Origin: Subsaximicrobium wynnwilliamsii
Lineage (GTDB): Bacteria > Bacteroidota > Bacteroidia > Flavobacteriales > Flavobacteriaceae
DNA length: 64,000 nt
Direction of reading: 5' to 3'
Assembly (NCBI RefSeq): GCF_007997225.1
Contig: NZ_VORM01000001.1
Coordinates: 62,001-126,000 of the forward strand
The position numbers were made by a program, and so were the translations under genes. How positions within the stretch are numbered: the stretch's first letter is position 1; each line of letters starts with the position of its first letter. Positions 34,654-52,199 of this stretch are shown piece after piece. The notes beneath the pieces were generated by a model. The model made no database searches and was not told the DNA's origin. It was given only the letters and a program-made list of their open reading frames with translations.

Positions 34654-35736
34654 TTATCCGTTAATAACCTTTTCTTGGTGGTTAATCGATTCTTGGTGGA
34701 TGGCTTTGAAAACTCGAAGAATAAACTCCTCGCTCAAGTTTTTTTCCTCGCCTTGCAGAATCATTTTGCCCAAAATCTCATTCCAACGTTTGGTTTGCAG
34801 TACCGCAACGTTTTTCGTCTTTTTAAGTGCTCCAATCTCATCGGCAACTTTCATTCGTTTGCCCATCATATCAATAAGTTGATGGTCAACCACGTCAATT
34901 TGTGTTCTTAAGGTATTCAACTTGTTATTATAGTCGGCACCTTCCGCAGTTTCCTTTTTGATTTTAAGATCTTTAGTGATTTGAATCAAGGTCTCTGGCG
35001 TAATTTGCTGGGCGGCATCGCTCCAGGCATTGTCTGGGTCGTAATGGGTTTCCACCATCATTCCGTCGTAATTGAGGTCCAGTGCGGTTTGGCACAGATC
35101 AAAGATGATATCGCGACGTCCTGCAATGTGCGAAGGGTCTAAAATCAATGGCAAATCTGGAAAGCGATTTTGCAGATCTACTGCAATCTGCCATTCAGGA
35201 TTGTTACGGTATCTCGTTTTTTCGTAGGTTGAAAAGCCTCTGTGAATTACGCCCAAATTCTTGACATCGGCCGTGTGAAAGCGTTCTACGGCACCAAGCC
35301 ACAAAGCTAGATCGGGGTTTACTGGGTTTTTGATAAGCACTATTTTATCTGTTCCTTTCAAGGCATCTGCAATATCCTGCACAATAAACGGACTCACAGT
35401 GGTTCTTGCTCCAATCCACAAAATATCAACATCGTGTTTAAGCGCCAAATCCACATGATTGGCATTGGCAACCTCTGTAGTGGTTAACATACCGGTTTCC
35501 TGTTTTGCTTTTTGCAACCATTTGAGACCCAAAGCACCAACACCTTCAAAATTTCCTGGACGTGTTCTTGGTTTCCAGATGCCTGCACGTAAAACGGTGG
35601 CATCACTCTCTTTAAGTTGGTGCGCTATCTTTAGCACTTGTGCTTCGGTTTCGGCACTGCAGGGTCCTGCAATGACCAATGGATGGTTTAATCCGAAATT
35701 ATCTAACCAACCTCTAAGTTCTTTCTTGTTTTCCAT
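34654..35736 (-). CDS. Bifunctional 3-deoxy-7-phosphoheptulonate synthase / chorismate mutase
   Basis: 360 residues. Residues 1-255 are a short type I-beta DAHP synthase (IAGPCSAETEAQVL, RAGIWKPRTRPGNFEG, DPSHIAGRR, GMMVETHYDP). Residues about 265-350 are an AroQ chorismate mutase helix bundle (LNTLRTQIDVVDHQLIDMMGKRMKVADEIG). The mutase sits at the C-terminus, as in the Porphyromonas enzyme and opposite to Bacillus. The fused mutase may act both as enzyme and as prephenate-sensing control. It is the last gene of the leader-controlled operon. Confidence 0.95.
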   Translation of the reverse strand: MENKKELRGWLDNFGLNHPLVIAGPCSAETEAQVLKIAHQLKESDATVLRAGIWKPRTRPGNFEGVGALGLKWLQKAKQETGMLTTTEVANANHVDLALKHDVDILWIGARTTVSPFIVQDIADALKGTDKIVLIKNPVNPDLALWLGAVERFHTADVKNLGVIHRGFSTYEKTRYRNNPEWQIAVDLQNRFPDLPLILDPSHIAGRRDIIFDLCQTALDLNYDGMMVETHYDPDNAWSDAAQQITPETLIQITKDLKIKKETAEGADYNNKLNTLRTQIDVVDHQLIDMMGKRMKVADEIGALKKTKNVAVLQTKRWNEILGKMILQGEEKNLSEEFILRVFKAIHQESINHQEKVING

Positions 35737-35982: not shown

Positions 35983-36834
35983 TCACTTTATCCCCTTCAA
36001 GATCTCTTTAATATGATTGGTGTTTTTCATCTCATTAAAGATACCTTCAAAATCATCGGCCTCCATATAATTTTTGAATTGCTGTAAGTTGCTGATGTAT
36101 TCCTCCAAGGTTTCAATCACGTTGTCTTTATTCTGCTTAAAAATGGGAGTCCACATATTTGGGGAGCTTTTGGCCAAGCGCACGGTGCTTTCAAAACCAC
36201 TCCCCGCCATATCAAAAATGTCTCGTTCGTTTCTTTCTTTATCAATTACCGTTTTACCCAGCATAAAAGCCGAGATATGGGAGAGATGCGATACATAAGC
36301 GATGTGTTTATCATGAGCCACAGGATTCATGTAACGAATGCGCATGCCCAAATCACTGAACAATTGCAAGGCTTTTTCCTGCAGCTTAAACGCGGTTTTT
36401 TCAACCTCACAAATAATATTGGCTTTAGCGTTGAACAACCCGGGAATTGCCGCACTTGGCCCAGAAAACTCGGTACCTGCAATGGGGTGCGCCGCCAAAA
36501 AATTACGCCTTCTGGGATGCTGCTCCACGGCTTGGCATATTGGTGATTTTGTGGAACCTACGTCAAATACCAAAGTAGTATCAGCAATATGGTGCAATAC
36601 TTTTGGCAGTTCCAACAAGGCCACATCCACAGGAATCGCGAGCACTACCAAATCGGCATTTTGCAAATCCTCCAGTTTCGCCTCTGCATCTATGACTTTT
36701 AAAGCTATGGCTTCCTCAATATGCTTTTGGTTGTTGTCAATGCCGAAAACCGTTACGTTCTCATACTTGGACTTGATATCCAAGGCCATGCTTCCGCCAA
36801 TTAACCCTACACCTATTATATATATCTGTTTCAT
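35983..36834 (-). CDS. tyrA: Prephenate dehydrogenase
   Basis: A 283-residue TyrA. The NAD-binding start is IIGVGLIGGSMALDI. It is followed by VVLAIPVDVAL, FDVGSTKSPICQAV, the substrate motif HPIAGTEFSGPSAA and the YVSHLSHI helix. It makes 4-hydroxyphenylpyruvate for tyrosine. No ACT domain is visible. It starts one base after the aminotransferase stop. Confidence 0.95.
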   Translation of the reverse strand: MKQIYIIGVGLIGGSMALDIKSKYENVTVFGIDNNQKHIEEAIALKVIDAEAKLEDLQNADLVVLAIPVDVALLELPKVLHHIADTTLVFDVGSTKSPICQAVEQHPRRRNFLAAHPIAGTEFSGPSAAIPGLFNAKANIICEVEKTAFKLQEKALQLFSDLGMRIRYMNPVAHDKHIAYVSHLSHISAFMLGKTVIDKERNERDIFDMAGSGFESTVRLAKSSPNMWTPIFKQNKDNVIETLEEYISNLQQFKNYMEADDFEGIFNEMKNTNHIKEILKGIK

Positions 36835-36835
36835 A

Positions 36836-37981
36836 TTATCTCAATCTTGCCAATGCCTCTTCCATTTCTTCCAATTCCGCACAAAGCGAAATGCGGATAT
36901 ACCCTTTGCCATTGCTGCCAAAAATAGTGCCTGGAGCGATAAAAATAGACCGTTCTTTTAATATGGTATCGACGTAATCTTCCGCATCAATATGCTCGGG
37001 CAGTTTTGCCCAAATAAACAAACCCGTGGCATTTTTATCATAAGTGCATTTTAAGACATCGGCAATTTTCCAAGCGACTTCACGACGTTCTTGATAAACG
37101 CTGTTTAAGCTACCATACCAAAGTTCGGAACAGTCCAATGCTTCAATGGCACCGCGCTGAATGCCCAAAAACATGCCAGAATCCATATTGCTCTTCACTT
37201 TGAGCACTGCTTTTAAATAGGTCTCATGCCCCAAAAGCATGCCAACACGCCAACCTGCCATATTAAAGGTTTTGCTCAACGAATTGAGTTCGAGACACAC
37301 GTCTTTCGCCCCTTTGTATTTTAAGATGCTTCTAGGCTTTGGGTTGAGCACAAAGCTATACGGATTATCATTGACCAATAAAATATCATTACGTTTGGCA
37401 AAGCCAATCAAATCTTCAAATAATTTGTTGGACGCTGTAGCTCCTGTTGGCATGTGCGGATAATTGACCCACATCAATTTGACCTTTTTAAGACCCCTTT
37501 TTTCTAAGGCCAGCAAATCGGGATGCCAATCGTTGGTTTCAGTCAAATCATAAAATACTGGCGTGGCGCCCACCAAATTAGTGACCGAGGCGTACGTGGG
37601 ATAGCCAGGGTTTGGGATAAGCACCTCGTCTCCCGGATTTAAAAAAGCCAAGGAAACATGAAAAATACCTTCCTTGCTGCCCATGAGTGGTAAAATCTCA
37701 TTATCGGCGTTCAAATAGGTTTTGAACTGGGTTCTATAAAATTTGGCAATAGCCTCTCGAAGTTCTGGAATCCCTTGATAACTTTGATACTTATGTGCGC
37801 TGGGTTCTTCAAAAGCCTCCACCAAGCCATTGAGCACGCGCTCTGGCGGGGCAAGGTCGGGACTCCCAATACCCAAATTGATAATGGGTTTGCCCTTTGC
37901 TTTTAAGGCAGCGACTTCCCTCAATTTCTTTGAGAAGTAGTATTCTTCAACGTGCGCTAATCGGTTGGCAACAGCTATCAT
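36836..37981 (-). CDS. PLP-dependent aminotransferase of the aromatic pathway (class I/II)
   Basis: A 381-residue fold-type I aminotransferase. GSPDLAPP and NPGYPTY bind substrate and cofactor, and the PLP lysine lies in SLSKTFNMAGWRVG. The C-terminal FIWAKLP and GYIRISL motifs are typical. Its place between pheA and tyrA, with a 4-bp overlap with pheA, suggests it makes Phe and Tyr from the keto acids, or arogenate. Sequence alone does not settle the substrate. Confidence 0.9.
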   Translation of the reverse strand: MIAVANRLAHVEEYYFSKKLREVAALKAKGKPIINLGIGSPDLAPPERVLNGLVEAFEEPSAHKYQSYQGIPELREAIAKFYRTQFKTYLNADNEILPLMGSKEGIFHVSLAFLNPGDEVLIPNPGYPTYASVTNLVGATPVFYDLTETNDWHPDLLALEKRGLKKVKLMWVNYPHMPTGATASNKLFEDLIGFAKRNDILLVNDNPYSFVLNPKPRSILKYKGAKDVCLELNSLSKTFNMAGWRVGMLLGHETYLKAVLKVKSNMDSGMFLGIQRGAIEALDCSELWYGSLNSVYQERREVAWKIADVLKCTYDKNATGLFIWAKLPEHIDAEDYVDTILKERSIFIAPGTIFGSNGKGYIRISLCAELEEMEEALARLR

Positions 37982-38931
37982 AAACTTGTGTTTTTATATT
38001 CGCCCAAAATCTTAAAATCCTGCGCCATAAGCGCAACAATGGCTTTGGCCTTTTCAAAATCGGAGTAAGACTCGAAAGTCACATCAACAAAAAAGGCGTA
38101 TTTCCAAGGGGTTTCAATCTTTGGGAGGGACTGTATTTTGGTAAGGTTCAACTTGCAATCGCTTAGCACATTCAACAGCGCCGCCAAACTCCCACGTTTG
38201 TGGTCGAGTTCAAATTTTAAAGAAGCTTTGTTGAAATGAGCAGTATCCAGATTGGATACCTCTCGCTCTACAATTACAAATCGGGTTTCATTGTTTTTTA
38301 TGGTTTGGATGCTGTGCTCCAAAATCTCGAGTTCAAAAAACTCTGAAGCCAATTGAGACGCAATGGCTGCCACATTTTTCAATTGTTTTTTCTGAATGCG
38401 CTCCGCCACTTCGGCGGTATCCTTATCCTCAATAAGTTTGATATGAGGATGCTTTCTAAAAAAAGCCTTGCATTGCAACAATGCCATTGGGTGGGAATAT
38501 ACTTCCCTAATATCGGCGATTTCCTGACCAGGAAGCGCCATCAAGCAATGTTGAATGTCGAGATAATGCTCACCAATTATGTGTAGGTTATGGTCATCAA
38601 TCAAGGCGTAATTAGGCAAAATAGACCCTGCGATGGAATTTTCCAAAGCCATTATAACCGCGTCACTTTGACCAGTCAACAAACTATCGACCGCCTCAGC
38701 AAAGGTCATGCATTCATTAACCTTTACACTGGTATCAAAATACTGTTGCGAAACAATATGGTGGAATGAGCCCTTCACACCTTGTATGGCAACCGATTTA
38801 ATGGTTTTTACTGGTTGGGTTTGTTTAACCGCCGTCGTTTCAGGATGGGATTTACTCAAAATTATCGTGTTTTGTTTCAACTTAAAATTGCTTTGCAAAC
38901 TATATGGTAAAAAAAAAGTCCCGATTTTCAT
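37978..38931 (-). CDS. pheA: Prephenate dehydratase
   Basis: Dehydratase domain: VAIQGVKGSFHHIVSQQYF, the AVIMALENSIAGSI loop, and NNETRFVIVERE with the catalytic Thr-Arg-Phe. A C-terminal ACT domain (SLKFELDHKRGSLAALLNVL) should bind Phe for feedback. The start is uncertain. ATG 38931 has AGGAG five bases upstream but lies in the loop of the attenuator hairpin and adds about 50 unlike residues. A TTG at 38859 gives a more normal N-terminus. It is the first gene of the operon. Confidence 0.93.
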   Translation of the reverse strand: MKIGTFFLPYSLQSNFKLKQNTIILSKSHPETTAVKQTQPVKTIKSVAIQGVKGSFHHIVSQQYFDTSVKVNECMTFAEAVDSLLTGQSDAVIMALENSIAGSILPNYALIDDHNLHIIGEHYLDIQHCLMALPGQEIADIREVYSHPMALLQCKAFFRKHPHIKLIEDKDTAEVAERIQKKQLKNVAAIASQLASEFFELEILEHSIQTIKNNETRFVIVEREVSNLDTAHFNKASLKFELDHKRGSLAALLNVLSDCKLNLTKIQSLPKIETPWKYAFFVDVTFESYSDFEKAKAIVALMAQDFKILGEYKNTSL

Positions 38932-38938
38932 CGAGACT
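38909..38938 (-). terminator. Attenuator terminator in the pheA leader
   Basis: On the RNA, AGUCUCGAU pairs with AUCGGGACU (9 bp, one U-G) across a GAAA tetraloop, followed by nine U. It is a textbook intrinsic terminator placed between a Phe/Tyr/Trp-rich leader peptide and pheA. The upstream words CGAG, CC and UAU at the end of the leader ORF can pair with AUA, GG and CUCG in and before the 5' arm, offering an antiterminator. Confidence 0.85.
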
Positions 38939-38961
38939 CCTATTATAAATTGTTATGTCAT

Positions 38962-39036
38962 TTATACATATAAGGCCTCGCTCTTTTTGCTGAAAAAGAA
39001 ATAAAACCAGTTAAAATATGTAGTATTTGCTAACAT
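38962..39036 (-). CDS. Aromatic leader peptide of the pheA operon
   Basis: A 24-codon ORF from ATG 39034-39036 to TAA 38962-38964. Residues 7-15 read YFNWFYFFF, that is five Phe, two Tyr and one Trp within 9 codons. Another Tyr is second to last. It stops 24 nt before the terminator hairpin. This is the layout of ribosome-mediated attenuation. A ribosome stalled at these codons would leave the following segment free to form the antiterminator, and a fast ribosome would cover it and permit termination. Confidence 0.82.
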   Translation of the reverse strand: MLANTTYFNWFYFFFSKKSEALYV

Positions 39037-39165
39037 TGATTCGCTAATTGACTGCTAAAGTAATTATATTTTCAACAAATAGAAATGGATAGTTGCTATT
39101 TTTTTATTTTTTTTAGCAGTTTTAAAGAATTGTCATTAAAAACAAACCTGTTTACGAATAATCCC

Positions 39166-39173
39166 TATTTTTG
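39166..39173 (+). promoter_or_regulatory. Candidate -7 box for gldA
   Basis: TATTTTTG matches TAnnTTTG and is 16 bp before the gldA ATG, implying a very short leader. No -33 partner was found at the normal distance. Confidence 0.4.
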
Positions 39174-39189
39174 AGTAAATATCCAAATC

Positions 39190-40083
39190 ATGTCTATTGA
39201 AGTTGAAAACATCTCAAAGGTCTATGGCGAACAGCGTGCGTTAGACCATATTTCATTCAAGATCAATAAGGGTGAGATCGTAGGTTTTTTAGGCCCAAAT
39301 GGTGCTGGAAAATCCACATTGATGAAAATATTGACCACTTATAGTTCTGCTTCGGAAGGCTTTGCCATAGTAACCGGCAAAGATGTGGTAACTAATAAAC
39401 AGGCAGTGCAACAAAGTGTTGGTTATTTGCCAGAACACAACCCGCTTTATCTGGACATGTATGTGAAGGAGTATCTCAACTTCAATGCGGGCATTTATAA
39501 GGTTTCCAAAGCGAGAATCGCGGAAGTCATCACACTTACCGGATTGACCCCCGAAGTGCATAAAAAAATCGGACAACTATCTAAAGGCTATCGCCAACGG
39601 GTTGGCCTGGCTAATGCTCTGCTGCACAACCCAGATGTGCTTATCTTAGACGAACCCACAACGGGCTTGGACCCAAATCAACTGGTTGAGATTAGGCATT
39701 TGATCAAAAATGTGGGTGCCGATAAAACGGTATTTCTTTCAACGCATATCATGCAAGAAGTCGAGGCCATTTGCGACCGCGTCATTATCATCAACAAAGG
39801 CCAAATCGTTGCCGACAAGAAACTGAAGGATTTGCGTGATGACACAGAACAAACGGTTATTGTTGAATTTGATTATCGTGTAGAAGATGCTTTCTTATTG
39901 AGACTCCCCAAAGCGAAATCGGTAAAGAACACCCATGATTTTACATATGAAATCACCTTTGCCACTTCGGACGACATGCGCTCAAAGGTTTTTGACTTTG
40001 CACATGACAATGAGTTGAAAATCCTTCAGCTCAACCAGAAAAATGCGAGCTTGGAAAGTTTGTTTCGGGAATTGACGAATTAG
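39190..40083 (+). CDS. gldA: Gliding motility ABC transporter ATP-binding protein GldA
   Basis: A 297-residue ABC ATPase. Walker A is GPNGAGKST (35-43), the signature LSKGYRQRVGLANALLHNP and Walker B LILDEPTTGLD. The C-terminal extension (RVEDAFLLRLPKAKSVKN... LESLFRELTN) fits GldA, which acts with GldF and GldG; those genes are not in the window. A stand-alone gldA is usual in flavobacteria. Confidence 0.9.
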   Translation: MSIEVENISKVYGEQRALDHISFKINKGEIVGFLGPNGAGKSTLMKILTTYSSASEGFAIVTGKDVVTNKQAVQQSVGYLPEHNPLYLDMYVKEYLNFNAGIYKVSKARIAEVITLTGLTPEVHKKIGQLSKGYRQRVGLANALLHNPDVLILDEPTTGLDPNQLVEIRHLIKNVGADKTVFLSTHIMQEVEAICDRVIIINKGQIVADKKLKDLRDDTEQTVIVEFDYRVEDAFLLRLPKAKSVKNTHDFTYEITFATSDDMRSKVFDFAHDNELKILQLNQKNASLESLFRELTN

Positions 40084-52069: not shown

Positions 52070-52116
52070 TGTGGTTATCTATCTAACACCCGATAAATGA
52101 ATCGCGTTTATTAGTA

Positions 52117-52199
52117 GAATGTAGCACCTTCTTTGATGAATTCAAAGGGTTGCTAAGGCTTCAACGGGTCTAATCCCTCGGCCTTTCTTGATAACATTT
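52117..52199 (-). ncRNA. SAM-I (S-box) riboswitch aptamer
   Basis: The minus strand reads TTATCAAGAAAGGCCGAGGG, then ATTAGACCCGTTGAAGCC, GCAACC, a hairpin (CTTTGA..TCAAAG) and AAGGTGCTA, in the order of the S-box consensus. P1 is AAUGU (52194-52198) with ACAUU (52118-52122). It precedes the met operon and should turn it off when SAM is plentiful. Confidence 0.93.

Follow-up and report, generated by a model that had tools for sequence, protein, structure and literature searches.

A predicted phenylalanine/tyrosine attenuator upstream of pheA in Subsaximicrobium wynnwilliamsii and its counterparts in Bacteroidia

Described attenuators and the pheA leader of the window

In Escherichia coli, pheA is preceded by pheL, a Phe-rich leader open reading frame (ORF) that is not known to contain Tyr and that stands, together with a terminator and an antiterminator, ahead of the structural gene. 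Composite leaders are known from the enterobacterial ilvGMEDA and thrL systems. Attenuators in some Bacteroidetes were reportedly covered by Vitreschak et al. in 2004, and an earlier description of the element treated here is possible there. A putative attenuator before pheA > hisHb > aroA-aroQ > tyrA in Bacteroides thetaiotaomicron was tabulated in 2005 from Merino's database (PMC1173090, Table 7); it concerns the equivalent operon of another member of the phylum, but it is a database prediction, and the part of the paper that holds it describes no leader peptide, the word 'leader' being absent from the text. Long 5' UTRs of B. thetaiotaomicron contain short ORFs reminiscent of leader peptides (PMC7366714). 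In 2021, a conserved 5' element was reported to lie ahead of pheA in Flavobacterium psychrophilum and further genera of the Flavobacteriaceae, along with clues for leader-peptide attenuation before amino-acid operons (PMC9723704). It is probably the same element as the one described below, but the passages that present it do so without a peptide, amino acids, a mechanism, or a range past the family. Beyond PMC1173090 and PMC9723704, the excerpts of open-licence papers that were consulted do not describe a leader peptide for Phe/Tyr ahead of pheA in Bacteroidota, and the composite Phe/Tyr(/Trp) coding and the taxonomic range go beyond what was found in print.

The DNA analysed here, called the window, is a stretch of 64,000 nucleotides from Subsaximicrobium wynnwilliamsii; the features of interest are collected in Table 1. 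The original prediction had placed a 24-codon, aromatic-rich leader ORF and a 9-bp, GAAA-looped hairpin with nine U ahead of pheA; direct reading bears out both to the base. This layout is the same as that of E. coli pheL and of the Rfam family RF01859 (Phe_leader), but the leader also has Tyr and, often, Trp codons, and the operon that follows covers both Phe and Tyr. As in ilvGMEDA and thrL, one leader codes for several amino acids of one operon, although the amino acids and the operons are different ones. RF01692 (Bacteroid-trp) is likewise a leader-peptide attenuator of the same phylum, but it has Trp codons and a trp gene, and its model (cut-off 49 bits) gives no match to the pheA leader in the window. 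The Phe_leader model stays below its 55-bit cut-off, with 24.1 bits at 38909-39032, a span that fits the element (28.7 for locus L021 and 26.5 for L188), and gives no match at the gathering cut-off in seven other loci scanned; these sub-threshold matches carry little weight, because unrelated families score alike (25.7 and 24.2 bits in the window; Thr_leader 29.4 in the scan of L188). Only one feature of the window reaches an Rfam gathering cut-off, a SAM riboswitch at 52072-52197 on the minus strand (74.4 bits).

Table 1. Leader, control and operon features of the pheA region in the window
Feature	Position	Strand	Basis or remark
Candidate Bacteroidota promoter: TTTC 39085-39082, 19 nt, TACTTTAG 39062-39055	39055..39085	minus	consensus likeness
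Leader ORF, 24 codons, MLANTTYFNWFYFFFSKKSEALYV and stop	39036 (ATG) to 38962 (TAA)	minus	direct reading; aromatic codons are 7-15
Segment 1, UACAUAU, pairs with AUAUGUA 38971-38965	39016..39022	minus	96.0% of helix cells pair
Inner stem of 1:2 hairpin, UUCUUUUU 39000-38993 / AAAAAGAG 38988-38981	38981..39000	minus	fold
Segment 2, antiterminator 5' arm, CGAGGCCUUAU (38980-38970)	38970..38980	minus	inside last leader codons
Segment 3, antiterminator 3' arm, AUAGGAGUCUCG (38943-38932)	38932..38943	minus	overlaps terminator 5' arm
Intrinsic terminator (segments 3:4), 9 bp: AGUCUCGAU 38938-38930, GAAA loop 38929-38926, AUCGGGACU 38925-38917; nine-U run 38917-38909	38909..38938	minus	sequence reading
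pheA, prephenate dehydratase	37978..38931	minus	best sub-cut-off NCBIfam match; listed ORF from ATG 38931
Aminotransferase, best models of LL-diaminopimelate/aspartate type	36836..37981	minus	below cut-off
tyrA, prephenate dehydrogenase	35983..36834	minus	above NCBIfam curated cut-off
Fused DAHP synthase / chorismate mutase	34654..35736	minus	best match below cut-off

The terminator of the leader is the one terminator-like site in 38700-39300 (shuffles: mean 0.3, sd 0.6), and its hairpin, taken alone, folds with a z of -4.5 against shuffles. An alternative pairing between the end of the leader and the 5' arm of the terminator had also been proposed; it is real, and longer than stated, with 11 pairs and one bulge between segments 2 and 3. 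This antiterminator piece folds at -13.0 kcal/mol (z -4.0 against shuffles), and the leader as a whole has a z of -2.6, with 4/200 shuffles equally good. The inner stem of the 1:2 hairpin folds barely better than shuffles (z -0.93); 98.3% of the cells of the corresponding helix are paired, with changes that are nearly all one-sided. In the near-relative alignment described below, a third stem, formed by UACAUAU/AUAUGUA and by the Phe-codon U-tract with the A-tract that follows, has 97.3% of its cells paired and one pair with 18 double changes; it is energetically weak and is possibly a pause or protector hairpin only.

Altogether, the element measures about 125 nt and consists almost entirely of leader codons, the two arms and the terminator. 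This composition bears on the idea that a ligand-binding riboswitch or a T-box senses Phe/Tyr directly and that the ORF is incidental. Such an arrangement would be in keeping with the structured, Rfam-unmatched element placed upstream of pheA in flavobacteria by PMC9723704, in the passages that present it, but it is highly improbable given how little of the element lies outside those parts, given that no T-box or other riboswitch model matches the pheA leader stretch, and given that leaders differing in nucleotide sequence retain their aromatic codons.

Among the four operon genes, tyrA is the only one to exceed an NCBIfam curated cut-off; on the other side of the leader lies gldA, in divergent orientation. 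The listed pheA ATG falls within the terminator hairpin, and the PheA-homologous part begins at 38802. The real start of pheA is thus probably further downstream, with TTG 38880 or 38859 perhaps a candidate, and automatic annotation, which takes the longest ORF, may overextend the protein. The promoter consensus of Bacteroidota is TTTG/TAnnTTTG, which the candidate promoter in Table 1 resembles; a sigma-70 promoter scan of 38700-39300 finds nothing beyond chance at this site. The best -7-like box has at least 5/6 consensus bases in 77/78 near, 35/36 family and 22/27 class loci, which are raw, uncontrolled counts in AT-rich DNA, and its distance to the leader ATG varies among loci.

Occurrence of the leader and terminator across Bacteroidota

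The near set comprises the best 80 of 481 relatives by a PheA protein search (71-78% identity), labelled as Flavobacteriaceae genera and as metagenome-assembled genomes assigned to Flavobacteriaceae, Flavobacteriales, Bacteroidia or Bacteroidetes. Leader and terminator are present in 78/80 of these loci; the remaining two, L016 and L039, lie so close to a contig end that hardly any DNA upstream of pheA is left. A common form of the leader is MxTxxYTYxNWFYFFFSKRNETLYV followed by a stop, and the terminator stem is paired in every cell of the near-relative alignment. The aminotransferase gene is present in all 80 near loci, and the order aminotransferase-tyrA-DAHPS/CM is kept in 79 of them, the remaining locus showing the aminotransferase only.

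Further upstream regions were then available from 80 loci, 36 of the family and 44 of other orders of the class. Both leader and terminator occur in all 36 family loci, in 25/25 more family loci (four of these genomes having been sampled earlier; a 26th locus beside them, L284, belongs to a class genome already counted as negative), and in the 3/3 family loci among 30 examined at the level of the order. (These 30 come from 34 matches; the four omitted are of family f5.) Loci from other families of the order have the combination in 12 of 27 cases, including L168 by way of longer loops. The 15 misses are eight loci of family f16, the four examined loci of f5 (PheA about 30% identical), L156, L158 and L173, the last of which is mis-anchored (its match begins at residue 71) and was scored as a miss. 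Family f16 has genomes of about 0.6 Mb, and all eight of its loci (L159, L161-L163, L165-L167, L169) are without a recognised leader before pheA, as if the attenuator had been lost from these reduced genomes.

In other orders of the class, leader and terminator are found in 42/59 loci (29/44 and 13/15), the 29 being made up of 27 recognised with standard terminator loops and two (L215, L216) with longer ones. In the other 17 they are absent or unrecognised. The terminator finder allowed loops of up to 9, then 14 for the later sets, and 20 for a recheck of the 17 loci first missed among the 44; L215, L216 and L168 were recovered only at the longer limits. Family f30 is mixed from genus to genus, with a leader in L205, L209 and L288 and none recognised in L181, L182, L285 and L286. 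Outside the class, 3 of 25 loci (L300-L302) have the combination, and these have the most similar PheA (44%) among the loci fetched there; the other 22 are without the element or it is unrecognised. (PheA domains within very long frames, e.g. in G1168, G1174 and G1048, were omitted from this set.) All loci were taken where the search listed coordinates and are not a random draw, so that the sample favours closer PheA.

To gauge chance, every region of the near (79), family (36) and class (44) sets was dinucleotide-shuffled ten times and scanned for an aromatic-rich ORF followed by a terminator within 600 nt; the mean number of matches per set was 0.2, 0.1 and 0.1 (maximum 1), against 78, 36 and 27 observed. 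The same scan upstream of window ORFs of at least 150 aa gives 0 matches in 56 regions, the listed pheA ORF being no match because its start lies inside the hairpin. The combination of leader and terminator is not a product of chance. The original prediction would have been refuted had aromatic codons or hairpin lacked conservation in relatives; it stands, since leader, terminator and alternative pairing all recur, with compensatory changes, from close relatives to other orders.

A covariance model, R1, finds the element and has matches in 49/395 genomes of the order, a tally that gauges neither presence nor absence well because some of the weaker matches (such as L146 and L117) resemble mere terminators by eye; in the genome of S. 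wynnwilliamsii it has one strong match and eight weak ones. Two other arrangements upstream of pheA were seen. Locus L135 (1353-1620; G419:C25) has tandem Phe-rich leaders, MNNLVSTFRFFGFFFFRKEGAMS and MNQNTQQNFSFFGFFFFKWKSEAVD, each with a hairpin and a T-run, and another family member, L224, has a Flavo-1 RNA motif at 495-572 (78.6 bits).

Conservation of this kind might also be expected if the aromatic-rich peptide were a functional, for example membrane, microprotein with its own terminator, and if pheA had a promoter downstream. The peptide is indeed conserved in near relatives, and in the window a gap of 106 nt lies between the U-run and the conserved portion of PheA. However, past the near relatives it is mainly the aromatic content and the arm-encoding tail that are kept, and several near relatives with an early stop or a frameshift retain the RNA arm. 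In addition, aligned PheA begins 3-9 nt past the U-run in 32/78 near loci, which leaves little room for a promoter in between, an argument that is borrowed from relatives; with the promoter-like box ahead of the leader, it bears indirectly on whether transcription starts downstream of 38909, the other outcome that would have refuted the original prediction. The leader was sought chiefly ahead of pheA, and its absence from other places is a result of covariance-model searches only. A microprotein is accordingly considered very unlikely, and the peptide is taken in what follows as the leader of an attenuator.

Co-variation of the alternative stems and the position of the ribosome

In the near set, the segment 2:3 stem appears in the minimum free energy fold of the piece in 79/79 sequences. 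The near alignment (A1) is weak in covariation: the 2:3 stem does not exceed shuffles on any measure, the 3:4 stem has no double changes, and the 1:2 stem lies above shuffles in paired cells, double-changed cells and score and not in pair count or types. Applied to segments 1:2 and 2:3 in isolation, RNAalifold yields short stems only. For this reason distant loci were fetched, and the support from covariation comes from these. A MAFFT alignment (A2) set segment 2 off by one column in about half of the rows, so anchored helices with swap controls were used instead.

When arms are swapped between genomes, the pairing of the two arms weakens from -13.1 to -9.95 kcal/mol in the 36 family loci and from -15.7 to -11.75 kcal/mol in the 27 class loci where the element was recognised (the other 17 being excluded), and 0/2000 permutations reach the observed energy. 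In the near set, own and swapped arms are alike (-12.1 and -12.0 kcal/mol), as would be expected of arms that show hardly any variation. With a 7-mer arm score over 116 elements, 0/2000 swaps are equally good; all seven arm pairs are present in 64 of the 116 elements, against a mean of 25.2 in swaps. The arm pairs seen include CGAGACT/AGTCTCG, CGGGACT/AGTCCCG, GAGGCTT/AAGCCTC, CAGGATT/AATCCTG and GGCAGGA/TCCTGCC, and the antiterminator arm is spelled by the final codons of the leader (KSRD, RNET and others). Because the swaps preserve relatedness only in part, there are fewer independent events than loci. In the terminator stem of 54 family sequences, 96.9% of the cells pair (89.8% in shuffles; 0/500 as high) and 43 cells differ on both sides (9.7 in shuffles; 0/500 as high); five pairs have at least one double change, which is not unusual, since 60/500 shuffles reach that number. 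Taken together, these sequence comparisons indicate that the antiterminator arm is co-varying with the terminator arm.

The spacing within the element is also consistent with a ribosome that governs the choice between the two stems. The median distance between the final aromatic codon of the cluster and the point where segment 2 starts to pair is 14 nt in the near set, 13 nt in the family set and 11 nt in the class set, within an overall range of 5-19 nt. On the assumption that a ribosome covers 10 nt past its A-site codon, one placed at any of the tested codons 7, 8 and 10-15 leaves segment 2 free, and one placed at the tested codons 20, 24 and 25 masks it; this modelled geometry supports the earlier claim that stalling at codons 7-15 would free the alternative pairing. 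With segment 2 free, the finished terminator (-16.5 kcal/mol) is more stable than the antiterminator (-14.3 kcal/mol), and control would therefore have to be kinetic; in the model, the antiterminator could form before the final terminator arm is transcribed.

The stop codon lies ahead of segment 2 in 7/142 elements (3/79 near, 1/36 family, 3/27 class), and in these a ribosome that terminates at the stop would mask segment 2 only in part. Early leader stops with the RNA arm largely kept are seen in L030, L036 and L062 (also L009, L056 and L081). L066 has a one-base deletion in its leader, a frameshift that should weaken masking, and again an RNA arm that is largely kept. Such early-stop and frameshift leaders amount to natural experiments on the distance that the ribosome has to travel.

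In all 142 elements the leader stop is 20-53 nt ahead of the start of the terminator. This distance is relevant to the suggestion that the leader acts on pheA chiefly through translational coupling or reinitiation and not by termination, as leader ORFs near structural genes may do (PMC4833913, in the section that deals with such ORFs). Since, moreover, a hairpin and U-run are part of every locus scored positive, and the arm of that hairpin co-varies with the antiterminator arm, coupling as the main mode of action is, like direct ligand sensing, highly improbable, and termination under ribosome control is the preferred reading.

The averages per leader range, by set, from 4.2 to 5.6 for Phe and from 3.6 to 4.1 for Tyr. 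All 142 leaders contain Tyr and 94 contain Trp; the tandem G419 leaders, which are not among the 142, have Phe and no Tyr. A joint Phe/Tyr sensor, in which the Phe and Tyr codons are presumably the ones that count, fits a joint Phe/Tyr operon. The Trp codons would add a third chorismate product to the sensing.

Proposed mechanism and wider meaning

We conclude, with a probability of roughly 0.9, that a joint Phe and Tyr operon is served here by ribosome-mediated transcription attenuation of the kind known from E. coli pheL and trpL. Amino-acid attenuation had been proposed at the outset, and the conservation, the compensatory changes, the geometry and the other leaders of the same genome (below) all support it. 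Built on the anatomy, the conservation, the co-variation of the alternative stems and the spacing that are observed, the model would supply stalling, read-through and the acting amino acids as follows. With ample Phe and Tyr, the ribosome would reach the leader stop and cover segment 2; segments 3 and 4 would then form the terminator, and transcription would end near 38909. A shortage of charged tRNA for Phe or Tyr (in this species also for Trp) would make the ribosome stall within codons 7-15, and the free segment 2 would pair with segment 3; the terminator would thereby be forestalled and pheA-AT-tyrA-DAHPS/CM would be transcribed.

Elsewhere in the same genome, a His-rich leader peptide, MTTIQFHHHFHTGHQAS, lies upstream of hisG (L325, G000:C88; hisG is over its cut-off), and a Trp leader, MNTILNHTWWWNFQESHS, lies upstream of a trpE-like gene (L326, G000:C50; 432 bits, trpE_most cut-off 517.7). 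Each precedes a GC hairpin and a T-run, read by eye, and the Trp leader matches Rfam Bacteroid-trp with 57.8 bits (cut-off 49). A second gene matching the trpE_most model in this genome (L327) has no such leader upstream. Given the His leader before hisG and the Trp leader before the trpE-like gene, leader-peptide attenuation seems to be a general device in this genome.

For a central operon, a candidate regulator is thus proposed, and the leaders collected, 79 in the near set and another 117 distinct ones, provide sequences for an RNA family that has no Rfam 15 match at cut-offs. The balance tips slightly in favour of an undescribed, class-wide RNA family: a composite Bacteroidota attenuator with Phe, Tyr and often Trp codons that predates the split of the Bacteroidia orders. 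Initiation in Bacteroidota largely takes place without a Shine-Dalgarno sequence. Ribosome-mediated attenuation requires that the leading ribosome stay close behind RNA polymerase and, if it is true, a class-wide attenuator implies tight coupling of transcription and translation in this phylum. The recurrence of the element across Bacteroidia orders, together with the His and Trp leaders, makes such coupling testable with a reporter of 125 nt.
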